Origin: Flavobacteriaceae bacterium | GTDB taxonomy: Bacteria; Bacteroidota; Bacteroidia; Flavobacteriales; Flavobacteriaceae | NCBI GenBank assembly: GCA_020627885.1 | Contig: JAHDGB010000005.1 | Coordinates: 1-38,835 of the forward strand | Length of the DNA stretch: 38,835 nt | Direction of reading: 5' to 3' | Part shown: positions 5,640 to 12,087 of the stretch, one piece after another | Layout: the number at the start of each line of letters is the position of its first letter | How positions within the stretch are numbered: position 1 is the stretch's first letter | Program-made: the position numbers and the translations under genes | The notes under the pieces: model-generated | What the model was told of the DNA's origin: nothing | What the model saw: only the letters and a program-made list of their open reading frames with translations | Database searches by the model: none

Positions 5640-5888
5640 TTATTCATTAATAGAAATTTCATCATCAAAATCATTATTATGCTCTTCCATAGCTTTAACT
5701 AAACGTTTTCCGATTTTTACTAAATAGATAGTATCTTCTGTTCTCACTTCAACAGCTTCTATTATTTCTTTTTTAGCATTTCTAAATGAAATAATATGTC
5801 CGTCATCATAACCATCTGGGTATTTATTTACTAAAAGATCTAATATGTCTTCATTTAGTTTCTTAAAATCTACTATTATTCTTTTCAT
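5640..5888 (-). CDS. Conserved-looking hypothetical protein (82 aa)
   Basis: Intact ORF MKRIIVDFKKLNEDILDLLVNKYPDGYDDGHIISFRNAKKEIIEAVEVRTEDTIYLVKIGK; 32 bp downstream of the polyamine genes on the same strand. Confidence 0.75.
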   Translation of the reverse strand: MKRIIVDFKKLNEDILDLLVNKYPDGYDDGHIISFRNAKKEIIEAVEVRTEDTIYLVKIGKRLVKAMEEHNNDFDDEISINE

Positions 5889-5920: not shown

Positions 5921-6904
5921 TTACATATCTAATAAATAGGCAAAAATCAAAGGGACAACTATGGTAGCATCACTTTCTATAATAAATTTAGGTGTGTCTA
6001 TATCTAATTTTCCCCAAGTAATTTTTTCATTAGGCACCGCTCCACTATAGGATCCATAACTTGTAGTTGAATCACTTATTTGGCAGAAATAACTCCAAAA
6101 AGGCGTTTCTGGTTGCTCCATATCTTGATATAACATGGGCACCACACAAATAGGGAAATCTCCTGCAATACCTCCTCCTATTTGAAAGAATCCTATGCCT
6201 TTTTCAGAATTATCTGTGTACCAATTTGCTAGAAAAGTCATATACTCAATCCCAGATTTTATAGTACTTGCTTTCAATTCTCCTTTAAGGACATAGCTCG
6301 CAAAAATATTCCCCATGGTACTGTCTTCCCAACCTGGACAAATAATAGGTAAATTCTTTTCTGCTGCTGCATACATCCATGAGTCTTTCAAATCAATTTC
6401 ATAGTATTCTTCAAGCACTCCAGACAACAACATTTTGTACATATACTCGTGTGGTAAAAAACGATCGCCATTAGCCTCTGCTCCTTTCCAAATCTTAACA
6501 ATGTGTTTTTGCAAACGTCTAAAAGCTTCCTCTTCTGGAATACAGGTATCTGTAACACGATTTAATCCTTTTTCAAGTAATTCCCATTCGTCTTGAGGAG
6601 TTAGATCACGGTAGTTAGGTACTCGCTTATAGTGAGAATGTGCTACCAAATTCATTATATCTTCTTCTAAGTTTGCTCCTGTACAAGAAATAATCTGTAC
6701 TTTATCTTGACGAATCATCTCTGCTAAGCTTTTACCCAATTCTGCAGTACTCATAGCACCAGCCATAGAAACTAACATCTTAGCGCCAGAGGCTAATTGA
6801 GCTTCATACCCTTTTGCCGCATCTACTAAGGCAGCCGCGTTGAAATGTAAATAATGGGTTTCTATAAATTTAGAAATCGGACCTTTAGTACTCATCGTCT
6901 TCAT
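5921..6904 (-). CDS. Deoxyhypusine synthase family protein (bacterial DHS-like)
   Basis: 327 aa; FNAAALVDAAKGY, LVSMAGAMSTAELGK, GADGD-like segment replaced by GGGIAGDFPICVVPM; adjacent to agmatinase. Confidence 0.88.
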   Translation of the reverse strand: MKTMSTKGPISKFIETHYLHFNAAALVDAAKGYEAQLASGAKMLVSMAGAMSTAELGKSLAEMIRQDKVQIISCTGANLEEDIMNLVAHSHYKRVPNYRDLTPQDEWELLEKGLNRVTDTCIPEEEAFRRLQKHIVKIWKGAEANGDRFLPHEYMYKMLLSGVLEEYYEIDLKDSWMYAAAEKNLPIICPGWEDSTMGNIFASYVLKGELKASTIKSGIEYMTFLANWYTDNSEKGIGFFQIGGGIAGDFPICVVPMLYQDMEQPETPFWSYFCQISDSTTSYGSYSGAVPNEKITWGKLDIDTPKFIIESDATIVVPLIFAYLLDM

Positions 6905-7820
6905 TGAATTTTTTGGTGTTATTTTTTAAAGTTACTTCGTAATGGTTATCAAAGTCGTCTTCTATTTCATTTTCTTGAAACTTATAACTTAGCATTTTAT
7001 AATAAAGTTTTGCTGCTAAGAAATCTGAGGATTTATCACCCTTGTTAGGACATAATTCTACGATATCAAAACCTACCACGTTCTTTTCTTTAAATACTTG
7101 TTTTAAATACTCAAGCGTTTCATACCATAGTAGCCCTCCCGGCTCAGGTGTGCCAGTACTCGGCATAATTGAGGGATCAAAAACATCAAGATCTATAGTG
7201 ATAAAAACGTTCTCTGTCATTTGATCTATAGAGGTATCCATCCAAGAATCATCGTTTACCATCTCATGAGCAAAATAAGTTTTCTCTCTGTCCATTACAG
7301 TAGTTTCAACACTATCCATAGAACGTATACCTACTTGTATTAAATTCATAGTCTGACTGGCTTCATATACTGCACAAGCATGATTGTAACTAGACCCTTC
7401 ATATTCTTTTCTTAAATCTGCATGAGCGTCTAATTGAAGCACAGTTAAGTTGTTATAACACTCATTAAAAGCTCTAATTGTTCCTATAGATATGGAGTGC
7501 TCACCTCCAAAAATGGTCACAAATTTGTTCTTTTTTATAAATTTTTTTGTTATATCGTGTACCGCTGTGACCATAGTTTCTGGCGAACTATTTTCAGTCA
7601 CAGAATCAGCTAAATAAACACCTTGTTTATATACTTCTGTTTCAGTCTCAATATCATATAATTCCATATTCTCTGATGCATTTAAAAATGCTTCAGGACC
7701 TTTGTCTGCACCTTTTTGCCATGTACTTGTACCATCGTAGGGAACTGGTATTAATACGATTTTTGCATTTTCTAGTTTACCTAACTCTTTTGGAATACCA
7801 GCGTATGTATTTGTTTTCAT
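6885..7820 (-). CDS. speB: Agmatinase/ureohydrolase
   Basis: 311 aa; GGEHSISIG, LQLDAHADLR, FITIDLDVFDPSIMPSTGTPEPGG arginase-family metal motifs; overlaps the next gene by 20 bp. Confidence 0.93.
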   Translation of the reverse strand: MKTNTYAGIPKELGKLENAKIVLIPVPYDGTSTWQKGADKGPEAFLNASENMELYDIETETEVYKQGVYLADSVTENSSPETMVTAVHDITKKFIKKNKFVTIFGGEHSISIGTIRAFNECYNNLTVLQLDAHADLRKEYEGSSYNHACAVYEASQTMNLIQVGIRSMDSVETTVMDREKTYFAHEMVNDDSWMDTSIDQMTENVFITIDLDVFDPSIMPSTGTPEPGGLLWYETLEYLKQVFKEKNVVGFDIVELCPNKGDKSSDFLAAKLYYKMLSYKFQENEIEDDFDNHYEVTLKNNTKKFNEDDEY

Positions 7821-7838: not shown

Positions 7839-9308
7839 TTAGTATGATAATTTTATAGTTTCTGAATCTTCACCATTTGGATTATTAGTTTTAGAGAAAT
7901 TGGTATTAATTCCATAATCATATCCTAAAATTGATAGTAATTGTTCCGATGTTTGTTGTTCTGAAAATACAGAAGTATTAAGTTTTCCATCGCCATCTCG
8001 ATCTATAAGAATATGTTTTGGTGTAGGAATCAAACAGTGTTGCAAACCTCCAAAACCACCTATGGTTTCTTGGTAGGCTCCTGTATTAAAAAAACCAATG
8101 TATAATGGAATATCTTGATCGTATTTAGGCAAATAAATTGCATTCATATGTTGCTCACTATTATAATAATCATCACTATCACAGGTCAGACCTCCTAAAA
8201 GTACACGCTCATATTCCTTATCCCAACGATTAATAGGTAGCATAATAAAACGTTTATTAATTGCCCAAGAATCTGGAAGTGTAGTAATAAATGACGAATT
8301 AATCATATTCCATTTTTCGCGATCGTTTTGTTGTTTTTGATATAACACCTCATAAATAGCTCCTCCACTTTCTCCAACTGTAAAACTGCCAAACTCGGTA
8401 AAAATATTTGGCACAGCAACATTGTGTTCGTCACAAACTTGTTTTATCTGACAGATTATTTCGTTAATCATGTAAGCATAATCATATTCATATCCCAACG
8501 AATTTTTAATAGGAAATCCTCCTCCTATATTTAAACTGTCTAAAGTCGAGCATTCCTTTTTAAGCTTAACATACACTTTCATACATTTTAAAAGTTCGTT
8601 CCAGTAATATGCTGTATCGCGTATTCCGGTGTTAATGAAAAAGTGCAACATCTTAAGAGTTACTTTAGAATTGTCTTTGATTTGATTATTATAAAAAGAC
8701 ACAATGTTTTTATAACCTATTCCTAACCTAGACGTGTAAAATTCAAATTTTGGCTCTTCTTCAGAAGCGATACGTATGCCTACATTATATTTTCCCTTAA
8801 CAACTTGATCAAAAAGATTAATCTCTTCGAAATTATCCAGAACCACAATGCAGTTTTCATGACCATTGTTAATAAGACGTGCAAGGTTATGAACGTATTG
8901 ATTACGTTTAAAACCGTTACTAATAACATAGGTGTTTTCTGTGATTTTTCCTTGCGCCTTTAAATTTTCTACAATATCCACATCAAAAGCTGAAGAGGTT
9001 TCAATATGAATATCATTTTTCAATGCCTCATCAAGTATATGCTTAAAATGAGCACTTTTTGTACAGTAACAATAATTGTAGCTACCTGCATAGTTGTTTT
9101 CTTTTATAGCATCTGCAAACCAACTTTTTGCTCTATTAATATTGTTAGAGATTTTGGGTAAGTATGTAAACTTTAATGGAGCTCCATATTCTTTTATTAG
9201 CGTCATTAAATCGATTCCATGAAAGTTTAATTCATTTGTTTTTAGGGTGAACTCTTCCTGTGGAAAATCAAAAGTTTGATCTATAAGATCTATATATTTT
9301 GTCTTCAT
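7839..9308 (-). CDS. speA: Arginine decarboxylase (PLP-dependent, alanine-racemase fold)
   Basis: 489 aa; YCTKSAHFKHILDEALKNDIHIETSSAFDVDIV (PLP lysine region), LNIGGGFPIK, GLTCDSDDYY; next to agmatinase. Confidence 0.88.
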   Translation of the reverse strand: MKTKYIDLIDQTFDFPQEEFTLKTNELNFHGIDLMTLIKEYGAPLKFTYLPKISNNINRAKSWFADAIKENNYAGSYNYCYCTKSAHFKHILDEALKNDIHIETSSAFDVDIVENLKAQGKITENTYVISNGFKRNQYVHNLARLINNGHENCIVVLDNFEEINLFDQVVKGKYNVGIRIASEEEPKFEFYTSRLGIGYKNIVSFYNNQIKDNSKVTLKMLHFFINTGIRDTAYYWNELLKCMKVYVKLKKECSTLDSLNIGGGFPIKNSLGYEYDYAYMINEIICQIKQVCDEHNVAVPNIFTEFGSFTVGESGGAIYEVLYQKQQNDREKWNMINSSFITTLPDSWAINKRFIMLPINRWDKEYERVLLGGLTCDSDDYYNSEQHMNAIYLPKYDQDIPLYIGFFNTGAYQETIGGFGGLQHCLIPTPKHILIDRDGDGKLNTSVFSEQQTSEQLLSILGYDYGINTNFSKTNNPNGEDSETIKLSY

Positions 9309-9309
9309 T

Positions 9310-9600
9310 CTATAGTAAGTAAAAAATTAGAAAATGTACGTTTTGCTCAGAAGAACAAATAAGTATATGTTTCTAAAAATTCAAATACGAAAAATAAACA
9401 CAGTGTAAGGAGCAAAGCTATTTTGCCTCAAAAGAATAAATATAGTATTAGTTTCAGAAGTCAGCCTAATAATTCGGTTCTCTATCCCTAGAGCAGCTTT
9501 CGAAGTAGACTTCTTTATCCTTCTAAGCCCGAATATGAAAAAAGATTTCATTTCAAAAATGGCAATGCGTTCAGCTAATGAACTCATTATATAACAAACA
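9310..9600 (-). ncRNA. Candidate structured leader RNA upstream of speA
   Basis: Minus-strand hairpins: 9569-9583 GTTCA-TTAGC-TGAAC, 9549-9561 CATTT-TTG-AAATG, 9480-9493 CTCTA-GGGA-TAGAG, 9410-9429 GAGGCAAA-ATAGC-TTTGCTC, plus a 7-bp long-range helix AGAAGTC (9508-9514)/GACTTCT (9456-9462). -7-like TATGTTTG at 9595-9602. Confidence 0.5.
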
Positions 9601-9602
9601 TA
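9595..9602 (-). promoter_or_regulatory. Bacteroidota-type -7 element (TAnnTTTG) for the speA leader
   Basis: Minus strand TATGTTTG; no clear -33 TTG at consensus spacing. Confidence 0.4.
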
Positions 9603-9630
9603 ATAAAAAATAATTTAGTTTTTATTTTTT

Positions 9631-10653
9631 TTAAACAGGAGTAAAATCCTTATGCCCAGGTATTGTCTCTGGTATAGGTTCTTTTATATCTACACCCAAA
9701 TGCAATATTCGAGTACCAGCTTCACAATTTGGTCTAATATTTTTACCTATTACTATACCATCTTTGTTCGCAATGATCTTATCCTTAACTTCTCCAAAAA
9801 CATTATATATAATAGCTATTACTTGTCCTTTATTAATACGATCTGTAAGTTTAGGAAGCACATCTACTATACCCCCACTCTTAGAATATATCCAATATGA
9901 ACTATTACAAACTGTAACATCTTTTGTTACTAAATCTTTTACTTCTCCTTCCAGCATTTCTAAATGTACCAATGTGTTTTTAATACCTTCTAAAGTAGCA
10001 TTTATTAATGTATGTTGAAAAACACTAGGATTACCAATTTCTATAGTTATTGCTGGAATATTGTTTGAATTCGCCCATGCTCTTAAAGTACCTTCCTCGT
10101 CATATTTATTGACAATAATTTGTGTTTTTTGAAGGTATGCTAACTCTCTTGTTTGCTCATTATCAATATCTGAACGAATATAAAGACTATTTACTCTCCC
10201 ATGACTCGCTGTATGTAGATCTAATAAATAATCAAACTTTTTAACAATTTTATTTACAAAATGATGTGCATAAATTTGACTGGTTGCCCCTTCTGGTTGC
10301 CCAGGCATAATTCTATTTAAATCTACATTATCTAAAAAATAACGCTGATTTGCCAAATAACCAGGAATATTACTTATTGGAATTAAGACAATATTTCCTT
10401 TTAATTTTAAAGGATTAATGTCTTCCAATAGTTTAAAAATAGTAGAGATACCATTTAATTCATCTCCATGTAAAGCTGCTGTTAAACCAATAGTTTTTCC
10501 TTTTTCATGACCTTTAATTACAATTAATGGCACTCTCCAAGGAATACCTAGAGCATTTTCAGAAATGTGAATAAAAAGTCTATGTATTTTCCCTCTTTTA
10601 AGGGAAGAAAAATTTAACTCATCTTTAGATTTAATAATTAAAACGTTACTCAT
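9631..10653 (-). CDS. Succinylglutamate desuccinylase/aspartoacylase (M14) family protein
   Basis: 340 aa; GLTAALHGDELNGI (HxxE), DLNRIMPG, DYLLDLHTASHGR zinc-binding motifs. Confidence 0.9.
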   Translation of the reverse strand: MSNVLIIKSKDELNFSSLKRGKIHRLFIHISENALGIPWRVPLIVIKGHEKGKTIGLTAALHGDELNGISTIFKLLEDINPLKLKGNIVLIPISNIPGYLANQRYFLDNVDLNRIMPGQPEGATSQIYAHHFVNKIVKKFDYLLDLHTASHGRVNSLYIRSDIDNEQTRELAYLQKTQIIVNKYDEEGTLRAWANSNNIPAITIEIGNPSVFQHTLINATLEGIKNTLVHLEMLEGEVKDLVTKDVTVCNSSYWIYSKSGGIVDVLPKLTDRINKGQVIAIIYNVFGEVKDKIIANKDGIVIGKNIRPNCEAGTRILHLGVDIKEPIPETIPGHKDFTPV

Positions 10654-10659
10654 AATATT

Positions 10660-12087
10660 CTATGTCATTATTTCGCTTAACAATGCAGCGTCATTATCTA
10701 AGGATTTGAAAAGTTTTAATCTAAATTGTCCTTTCTTATTAACTAAGTTTTGTGCCATTTTATCAATAGAAACTATGGTTAAAATAGTTTGGATGTAAGC
10801 TTCAATTAAATCATCTAACCCCAATCCAAGCATATTAAAATCTTTCCTATCCATTAACATTAATCTAGAGGTATCTGAGTCCCATTGGTTTTCTCCTATT
10901 TTAGTAGATAAGTTTGTTCCTAAAACCTTCCAGCTATCTATTGGAGTTTCTGCCTCTAAAGGTTGAGTAGCTCGTCTTGCATAAATAGCACATGGTGAGA
11001 AACCTTTAGGAGAAGAGTATACCATCATTCTTAAATCGGCAATGAATATATTTCCTTTTCGATTAGGCACTGTTCCAATATGAAAAAATTTACCATACTC
11101 GCTTGTGGAACTCCAATTGTAATGTCCTATTAGACTTTGCACAATAAATTGATCGTAATCATAACTATTTGCCATGAAATCATCTAGTTCTTTATCGGTT
11201 GTAATTGTAAAAACACCTTGACCAGCGTTAGAATATGGGTTTTTAATTACAGCTTTACCTCCAAACTTTTTAACCCATAGCGGAATCTCATTTTTGTTAA
11301 CATCTTTGATTGTTTCTGGAACATTTATTTTTAAACCAGATTCTGCTAATTCTGAATTATAAAGTTCATAAGCTTTATTTGCTAATAATTTATTCCTTCC
11401 TCCTGCTAAACAAACTAAAGTAGAATTATAAACAAAGGTTTTAGAAGTTGGTGGAATACGATTCCATGGTTTTTGAGTCACATATCTAAAAGCAGCACGT
11501 ATAGGTACTTTTGTTTTATCTTCTAAATCTACCATCATGACTCCATTCTCAAAAGAGATTGATTGTCCCTCTTTATTAAAATGAGGTATTAAATATACTT
11601 TTTCACCAGTTAAGTCTGCAATTGTTGCTGCATAACCAGAAGTTTCTAAATAATTTTTGTCGTAAATTACAGCAAGACATCCTTTAGGTAATCGCTTTCG
11701 TTTTATTGCGGGTAGAAAAGAATTTTCAATAAGAAATTTATACCCTCTGTATTCATCTAAATCTGATCGTGGTGGCATAGACTTTTGACCTGAAGGGCAA
11801 GAGTTAGTTTCCAAAATGACCATTTTTCTATTACCCTTTTCGGTAGTAACATAGAATAAATCTGATCCCCCCCAATGAAAATGTTTGCATTGGTAGTTTA
11901 AAACAGATTTTAAAACAGTTCTATCTACCTGAGGATTTAAATGAGCATATCTTTCTATAATGCGCTCTTGATCTAAGTTAAAAAAGTGGCTTATCATTGA
12001 GTGCAATTGAGAATTCAATGCTTTTGGATAAAAATGATTTTCTGCATCAAAATTATCTGGTTCAATAATCTCTATGTTTCTTTTCAT
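10660..12087 (-). CDS. ATP-grasp superfamily protein
   Basis: 475 aa; GKAVIKNPYSNAGQGVFTI ATP-grasp lysine/glycine loop, ADLRMMVY; 6 bp upstream of the aspartoacylase-like gene. Confidence 0.7.
   Translation of the reverse strand: MKRNIEIIEPDNFDAENHFYPKALNSQLHSMISHFFNLDQERIIERYAHLNPQVDRTVLKSVLNYQCKHFHWGGSDLFYVTTEKGNRKMVILETNSCPSGQKSMPPRSDLDEYRGYKFLIENSFLPAIKRKRLPKGCLAVIYDKNYLETSGYAATIADLTGEKVYLIPHFNKEGQSISFENGVMMVDLEDKTKVPIRAAFRYVTQKPWNRIPPTSKTFVYNSTLVCLAGGRNKLLANKAYELYNSELAESGLKINVPETIKDVNKNEIPLWVKKFGGKAVIKNPYSNAGQGVFTITTDKELDDFMANSYDYDQFIVQSLIGHYNWSSTSEYGKFFHIGTVPNRKGNIFIADLRMMVYSSPKGFSPCAIYARRATQPLEAETPIDSWKVLGTNLSTKIGENQWDSDTSRLMLMDRKDFNMLGLGLDDLIEAYIQTILTIVSIDKMAQNLVNKKGQFRLKLFKSLDNDAALLSEIMT

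Follow-up and report, generated by a model that had tools for sequence, protein, structure and literature searches.

A conserved leader combining a pseudoknotted RNA domain with a translated upstream ORF precedes the speA polyamine operon in Flavobacteriaceae

Most of what is known about leader peptides that respond to polyamine precursors comes from enterobacteria and fungi. In TnaC and the fungal arginine attenuator peptide, a metabolite holds the ribosome at the stop codon by way of a conserved C-terminus. Among the closest described systems at polyamine genes is SpeFL, or orf34, at speF (PMC6386406). In odc1 (uORF-25-1) of the Alphaproteobacteria, a single hairpin and pseudoknot lie upstream of an 11-codon upstream open reading frame (uORF) that begins with UUG 5 nt before the main start codon (PMC8632094). 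The spermidine riboswitch is a variant of SAM-I, described in a text that does not include Bacteroidota (PMC10853860). The transcriptome of F. psychrophilum contains 64 structured 5' transcript regions as well as leader-peptide attenuators, with speA absent from the main text (PMC9723704). Initiation in Flavobacterium uses no Shine-Dalgarno sequences and depends on structure (PMC6847099); the phylum Bacteroidota initiates translation without Shine-Dalgarno pairing. None of the papers found describes a polyamine-precursor-sensing leader peptide at a Bacteroidota arginine decarboxylase, and the literature searches made turned up no account of any leader before speA in flavobacteria, an absence that is weak evidence.

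The DNA analyzed here (the window) is the whole 38,835-nt stretch of contig JAHDGB010000005.1, whose nearest relatives, judged by leader sequence, are Flavobacteriaceae. The operon lies on the minus strand and consists, in order of transcription, of speA, an agmatinase gene and a deoxyhypusine-synthase-like gene. The first encodes a speA-type arginine decarboxylase (7839-9308; Pfam Orn_Arg_deC_N) whose best NCBIfam models are arginine decarboxylases, with scores below the equivalog cut-offs, and whose retrieved PDB relatives are arginine decarboxylases too. The agmatinase gene speB (6885-7820) exceeds the cut-off of NCBIfam TIGR01230, and the third enzyme (5921-6904; Pfam DS, 148.5 bits) possibly makes homospermidine. 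An AstE/AspA-type gene (9631-10653) and an ATP-grasp-like gene (10660-12087) lie directly upstream on the same strand. All motifs named in a preliminary description of the region, including TATGTTTG, CTCTAGGGATAGAG and GAAGTCTACTTC (9513-9502), are located on the minus strand where it had placed them. The first of these, which the description had called a -7-like box, occupies 9595-9602 and fits TAnnTTTG, the Bacteroidota -7 consensus (PMC9723704). Among 208 relatives, TAnnTTTG is clustered 46-60 nt 5' of the uORF start, with 98 hits versus 16 in shuffles, and transcription is predicted from the TATGTTTG box to start at about 9587. The predicted transcript of the window clade has a 5' hairpin, GTTCA-TTAGC-TGAAC (9569-9583, minus strand), for which relatives have other complementary arms, such as GTCC/GGAC (L232) and ACCCAA/TTGGGT (L227).

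Between this putative promoter and speA lies a conserved composite leader on the minus strand, made up of a pseudoknotted RNA domain, a stem before speA and a translated ORF that the preliminary description had overlooked. Most of the relatives' upstream regions compared have one open minus-strand frame in a common register, which in the window spans 9381-9551 and comprises 56 codons and TGA (MKSFFIFGLRRIKKSTSKAALGIENRIIRLTSETNTIFILLRQNSFAPYTVFIFRI). A search of the family's genomes, for which a 13-row protein alignment (A1) served as the query, finds relatives of this uORF in 202 of 400 genomes (189 of the 332 good ones) at E values down to 5e-29. The matches are mostly open frames of about 58 codons without stops, and the length is 55-58 codons in 136 of 154 uORFs. 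The first codon is always ATG, TTG or GTG and stands at a constant column; parsimony places 15, 0 and 0 changes on the tree at its first, second and third bases. The family is absent from Pfam and NCBIfam. An in-frame ATG at 9587 was considered as the start and rejected, as the corresponding ATG of close relatives is out of frame or soon followed by a stop, for example in L002 (ATGAGTTCATAA).

Conservation of the uORF is concentrated in the last ~10 residues adjoining the stop codon, and the middle of the peptide is hypervariable. The window's uORF ends in F-R-I-stop (TTT CGT ATT TGA; 9381-9392, minus strand), and its homologues terminate in [I/F][R/Q][I/V]-stop, with RI, RV, QI or QV as the final two residues in 119 of 154 and TGA as the stop in 136 of 154. 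This motif is short, and leaders with divergent N-termini have it in common. Proline at -9 and threonine at -7 are features of the two uORF types, A and B; these two positions and arginine at -2 draw on every codon of the CCN, ACN and CGN boxes, respectively. Computed over 95 disjoint leader pairs, pN/pS in the last 14 codons is 0.33 in frame versus 1.75 and 1.50 in the other frames, and third positions hold 458 differences versus 211 and 196 at the other two. The in-frame ratio and the third-position excess together give the uORF a translation signature, and these substitution patterns indicate that its C-terminus is under protein-level selection. A short translated ORF before the regulated gene, with conserved stop-proximal residues and variability elsewhere, is what is expected of arrest-type leader peptides.

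The RNA domain overlaps the start codon and the first ~32-33 codons of the uORF. This pseudoknotted domain extends from the 5' strand of P0 (GCC, 9563-9561) to the 3' strand of the pseudoknot (9462-9456), thus covering 9456-9563 on the minus strand. Helix P1 joins TTCGG (9533-9529) to CCGAA (9477-9473), and its pairs are formed in 98-99% of 109 representatives. P2 (9496-9528) consists of GCTT (9528-9525) with AAGC (9499-9496) and GAAG (9523-9520) with CTTC (9505-9502), and P3 is the hairpin CTCTA-GGGA-TAGAG (CTCTAGGGATAGAG; 9480-9493), in which all five pairs have changes on both sides. The registers of P2 and P3 differ by one base between subtype A, to which the window belongs, and subtype B. 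The loop of P2 bears the strand AGAAGTC (9508-9514), which pairs with GACTTCT (9456-9462). The preliminary description had taken these strands for a simple enclosing long-range helix; the helix exists, with six core pairs complete in 93% of the 109 representatives, and is instead a pseudoknot formed from the P2 loop. Its outer pair is A-U in place of G-C in 8 of 34 sequences.

Alignment of the related speA upstream regions gives covariation in P1, P2, P3 and the pseudoknot. RNAalifold, run unguided on 34 diverse sequences, returns P1, P2 and P3 with compensatory changes in 13 of 15 pairs. When the pseudoknot and P0 are added (A2), 88.5% of cells are paired and 21 of 30 pairs have compensatory changes, a count that 0 of 500 shuffles equal; shifting the partner strand cuts pairing to 28-55%. 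In an unbiased scan, co-changes on the branches of the tree were counted for each of the 10,222 column pairs. This count replaced an APC-corrected G-test against a simulated phylogenetic null, in which the best E was 0.2-2 and pairs reflecting nothing more than the split between the two subtypes reached scores equal to those of true helices. The scan ranks a P2 pair first (columns 65-95; 14 co-changes versus 1.9 expected, E 1.7e-4), followed by another P2 pair (64-96) and by the P1 pair 61-117, for which all seven co-changes are compensatory. Other pairs of P1, P2, P3 and the pseudoknot are enriched at the subsequent ranks and are individually non-significant after correction. A covariance model scores the window at 85.9 bits and detects L249 (E 2.5e-8) and L264 (E 2e-4), neither of which is in its alignment and whose peptides differ in this part.

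The coding sequence under the knot behaves differently from the end of the uORF. Codons 2-32 have a pN/pS of 0.68 and a synonymous divergence of 0.115, about four-fold lower than the 0.456 of the C-terminus, so their nucleotides are constrained for a reason other than the protein. Folding energy gives a different picture: 9453-9587 has z = -0.54, with 53 of 200 shuffles as stable, and the minimum free energy fold of the window lacks the knot. By energy alone the upstream half of the gap is ordinary and 9309-9380 is unusual; the finding is above chance because of the comparison across relatives. With that conservation and covariation, the proposal of a structured cis-acting leader for the polyamine operon is supported. 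No known Rfam class accounts for it, since Rfam 15, whose families include Flavo-1, 6S and riboswitches, has no match at gathering thresholds in the whole window, only sub-threshold chance hits at E 1.1 or worse in a permissive scan of 9200-9720, and nothing at E<=1 across the loci of 13 relatives.

From the uORF stop to speA, the 72 nt of 9309-9380 fold with unusual stability (z = -2.79). Here the outer arm TTAGAAA (9376-9370) pairs with TTTTCTAA (9334-9327) around an inner hairpin, TTTGTTC-TTCT-GAGCAAA (9359-9342), to give an intergenic stem at 9327-9376 on the minus strand. Across 140 distinct intergenic leaders the mean z is -1.44 (p 4e-21), versus -0.59 in a control stretch. The widest pair opens a median of 4 nt past the uORF stop (12 in shuffles) and closes ~15 nt before speA, and this stop-to-start geometry occurs in 45% of leaders versus 13% of shuffles. 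The outer arms TTAGAAA/TTTCTAA vary little within the window clade; the inner hairpin varies yet stays complementary, as in TTTGTTC/GAACAAA and TTTGCCC/GGGCAAA. RNAalifold returned no structure on the gappy alignments of this region, so the case for the stem is made by the z scores, the geometry and the covariation seen in the inner hairpin. An intrinsic terminator after the uORF was also considered and rejected: the window has none there, and just 12 of 94 relatives have a T-run after the last stem.

For 196 of 207 distinct leaders, speA begins downstream, the median distance being 75 nt. When 60 relatives were searched by nucleotide sequence, the leader appeared at 76-84% identity within the genus and as fragments further out. 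Named carriers are Winogradskyella, Dokdonia, Aquimarina, Kordia, Muricauda/Allomuricauda/Flagellimonas, Maribacter, Lacinutrix, Hyunsoonleella, Tamlana and Oceanihabitans. Sixteen genomes of the family that gave no uORF hit were sampled, and ten of them have no speA hit either. The leader system is not universal, as some speA loci have no recognizable uORF or knot (L246, L251, L252, L253, L257 and L019). Outside the family, no leader of this kind was seen before speA in the few loci examined, and the RNA model matched nothing besides the window itself in 247 class-wide genomes; the order sample was dominated by one genus.

In a species-rich sister genus (g148), probably Flavobacterium, the leader ORF has another N-terminus and terminates with ANIRV-stop at 52-68 nt from speA. 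Of the genus's 121 genomes, 93 contain it. Among 75 distinct sequences, N at -4, R at -2 and V at -1 are invariant in the protein, the arginine being encoded by AGG, AGA, CGG, CGA and CGT. This uORF end has a pN/pS of 0.09, and >1 out of frame. The knot is undetectable there by the RNA model, synonymous divergence in codons -40 to -15 is 0.449, and the intergenic stem is weak (0 to -3.9 kcal/mol in examples) yet more stable than shuffles. In loci L255-L263 and L267-L336 (probably Flavobacterium), the 59-residue leader peptides that end in ANIRV-stop before speA form a separate family, with the -7 box a few bases 5' of the start codon. In other genera the uORF ends in LRI, YLRV or LQLQV. The peptide end is thus, judging by the sequences compared, the more widely shared layer of the leader. 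The RNA knot is a feature of a large subset and is present in the window and in roughly half of the genomes of the family.

Several leader copies precede genes other than speA. Extra copies in L205, L212, L107 and L116/L226 stand before a small protein (MKR.IVDYKKLN...) of the same family as window ORF 5640-5888, and the C-terminal RI/QV is missing from these leaders. In L089 a copy precedes a NUDIX-like gene, in L131 a glyoxalase-like gene, and in L137 a gene for a ~458-aa protein that resembles ATP-dependent zinc protease/RimK fusions, all named by eye; the last of these genes is also found close downstream in L089 and L131. The leader may define a wider regulon. The Kordia loci L109, L119 and L100 have, on their minus strands, a second and divergent leader that points away from the one at speA; it is followed by a small protein and two genes, of which one resembles window ORF 10660-12087. 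L096 (Aquimarina pacifica) contains a second operon copy with an intact leader, from which most of speA, the agmatinase gene and the deoxyhypusine synthase gene have apparently been deleted.

The position of the promoter box, the translation signature, the C-terminal selection, the knot, the intergenic stem, its geometry and the link to speA are directly supported. The reading that we consider somewhat better than an even bet is a cis-acting leader of two layers, in which the nascent uORF peptide would hold the terminating ribosome and the RNA knot would gate translation of the uORF. Here we infer the arrest, its ligand, the direction in which speA is switched on and the role of the knot. With arginine or a polyamine bound, the nascent C-terminus would slow or block termination at the uORF stop, in the manner of SpeFL, TnaC and the fungal arginine attenuator peptide. 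The stalled ribosome would cover the 5' arm of the intergenic stem, which would then stay open and leave the speA start accessible. If the ribosome leaves fast, the stem would form ~15 nt upstream of the speA start and initiation, which in this phylum goes without Shine-Dalgarno pairing and responds to structure, would be reduced. The knot, placed over the start codon and first 32 codons of the uORF, would control the frequency of uORF translation and may also have a ligand of its own.

A variant with about one chance in four, by our estimate, makes the leader a hybrid sensor, a single stretch of mRNA serving both as an aptamer and as the code for an arrest peptide. The knot would read one metabolite, such as a polyamine product, and so set the frequency of uORF translation; the nascent C-terminus would read another, such as arginine, and set how long the ribosome dwells at the stop. 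Expression of speA would then integrate substrate and product.

That the leader is purely a riboswitch is unlikely. The pseudoknot would then be a metabolite aptamer controlling speA directly, with the ORF serving only as a ribosome path for refolding. The leader does contain a conserved structured domain with a compact, pseudoknotted fold, in which unpaired GTTT after the start codon and AAGT in the loop are conserved at very low substitution, and the frame of the N-terminal block is near neutral (pN/pS 0.68). Against these features stand the strong protein selection on the C-terminal half of the uORF, a whole genus in which the peptide end is retained and no trace of the knot is seen, and a distance of >140 nt from the knot to the speA start. 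Given the conserved C-terminus, a mechanism based on the ribosome is no less likely than a pure riboswitch.

The uORF peptide might instead work in free form as a regulatory microprotein, binding SpeA for instance, and be merely co-transcribed. Its conserved product of ~56 aa and fixed length would suit this role, which nevertheless appears quite improbable when conservation lies at the last ~10 residues, the middle is hypervariable, the N-terminus follows the constraints of the RNA, and the position before speA is constant.

Classical attenuation, in which scarce Arg-tRNA would stall the ribosome at tandem arginine codons and alter the downstream fold, is highly unlikely. It has a precedent in the two arginine codons of Salmonella speF orf34 (PMC6386406), and the window's uORF has consecutive arginine codons (LRRIK). 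An RR pair within the first 35 codons occurs in 17 of 35 type-A representatives but only 1 of 74 of type B (18 of 109), and it is attributed to RNA pairing because it sits in helix P2. The leader thus has neither of the two features by which arginine attenuators were judged, namely conserved tandem codons and a terminator after the uORF.

Two proposals of the preliminary description can be set aside. A bistable RNA, in which the GAAGTC strand would switch from the long helix to the local hairpin GAAG-TCTA-CTTC and back, has very little probability left: both pairings are present in the window sequence, but the four local pairs occur in 13% of 109 representatives (11% of the window's subtype), and CTTC is a strand of P2. 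An independent RNA, for instance a 6S homologue of Bacteroidota, has next to none, as nothing beyond the hairpins speaks for it, Rfam has no match at gathering in the window or at E<=1 in the relative loci, and the stretch lies within a translated ORF that almost always adjoins speA (196 of 207 leaders).

The preferred two-layer reading concerns an element that is widespread in marine Flavobacteriaceae and has strong RNA covariation inside a coding sequence. Its layers are separately testable, as the sister genus keeps the peptide layer alone. The element would count both as a new family of structured RNA and as a new candidate family of arrest peptides.

The likeness to the spermidine riboswitch extends to RNA-based control in polyamine metabolism, with no SAM-type match by Rfam here. 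With TnaC and the arginine attenuator peptide the uORF has in common C-terminal conservation next to the stop; stalling at that site would be by analogy with them, and no sequence similarity is claimed. SpeFL/orf34 of E. coli and Salmonella resembles the flavobacterial leader as a short ORF in a structured leader before a polyamine decarboxylase gene, and a role for ribosome pausing would be a further likeness. BLASTP of the uORF against E. coli SpeFL gives no alignment at E<=100. SpeFL has 34 aa and precedes an ornithine decarboxylase, whereas the flavobacterial uORF has ~56 aa, precedes an arginine decarboxylase in another phylum, contains a pseudoknot inside its coding sequence and has no terminator in the window. 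The likeness to odc1 is a pseudoknotted RNA tied to a conserved uORF before a polyamine gene. The odc1 motif of a hairpin and pseudoknot with an overlapping 11-codon UUG uORF is not present here; in its place, the flavobacterial leader has a three-helix domain within a uORF that ends ~75 nt before the gene.
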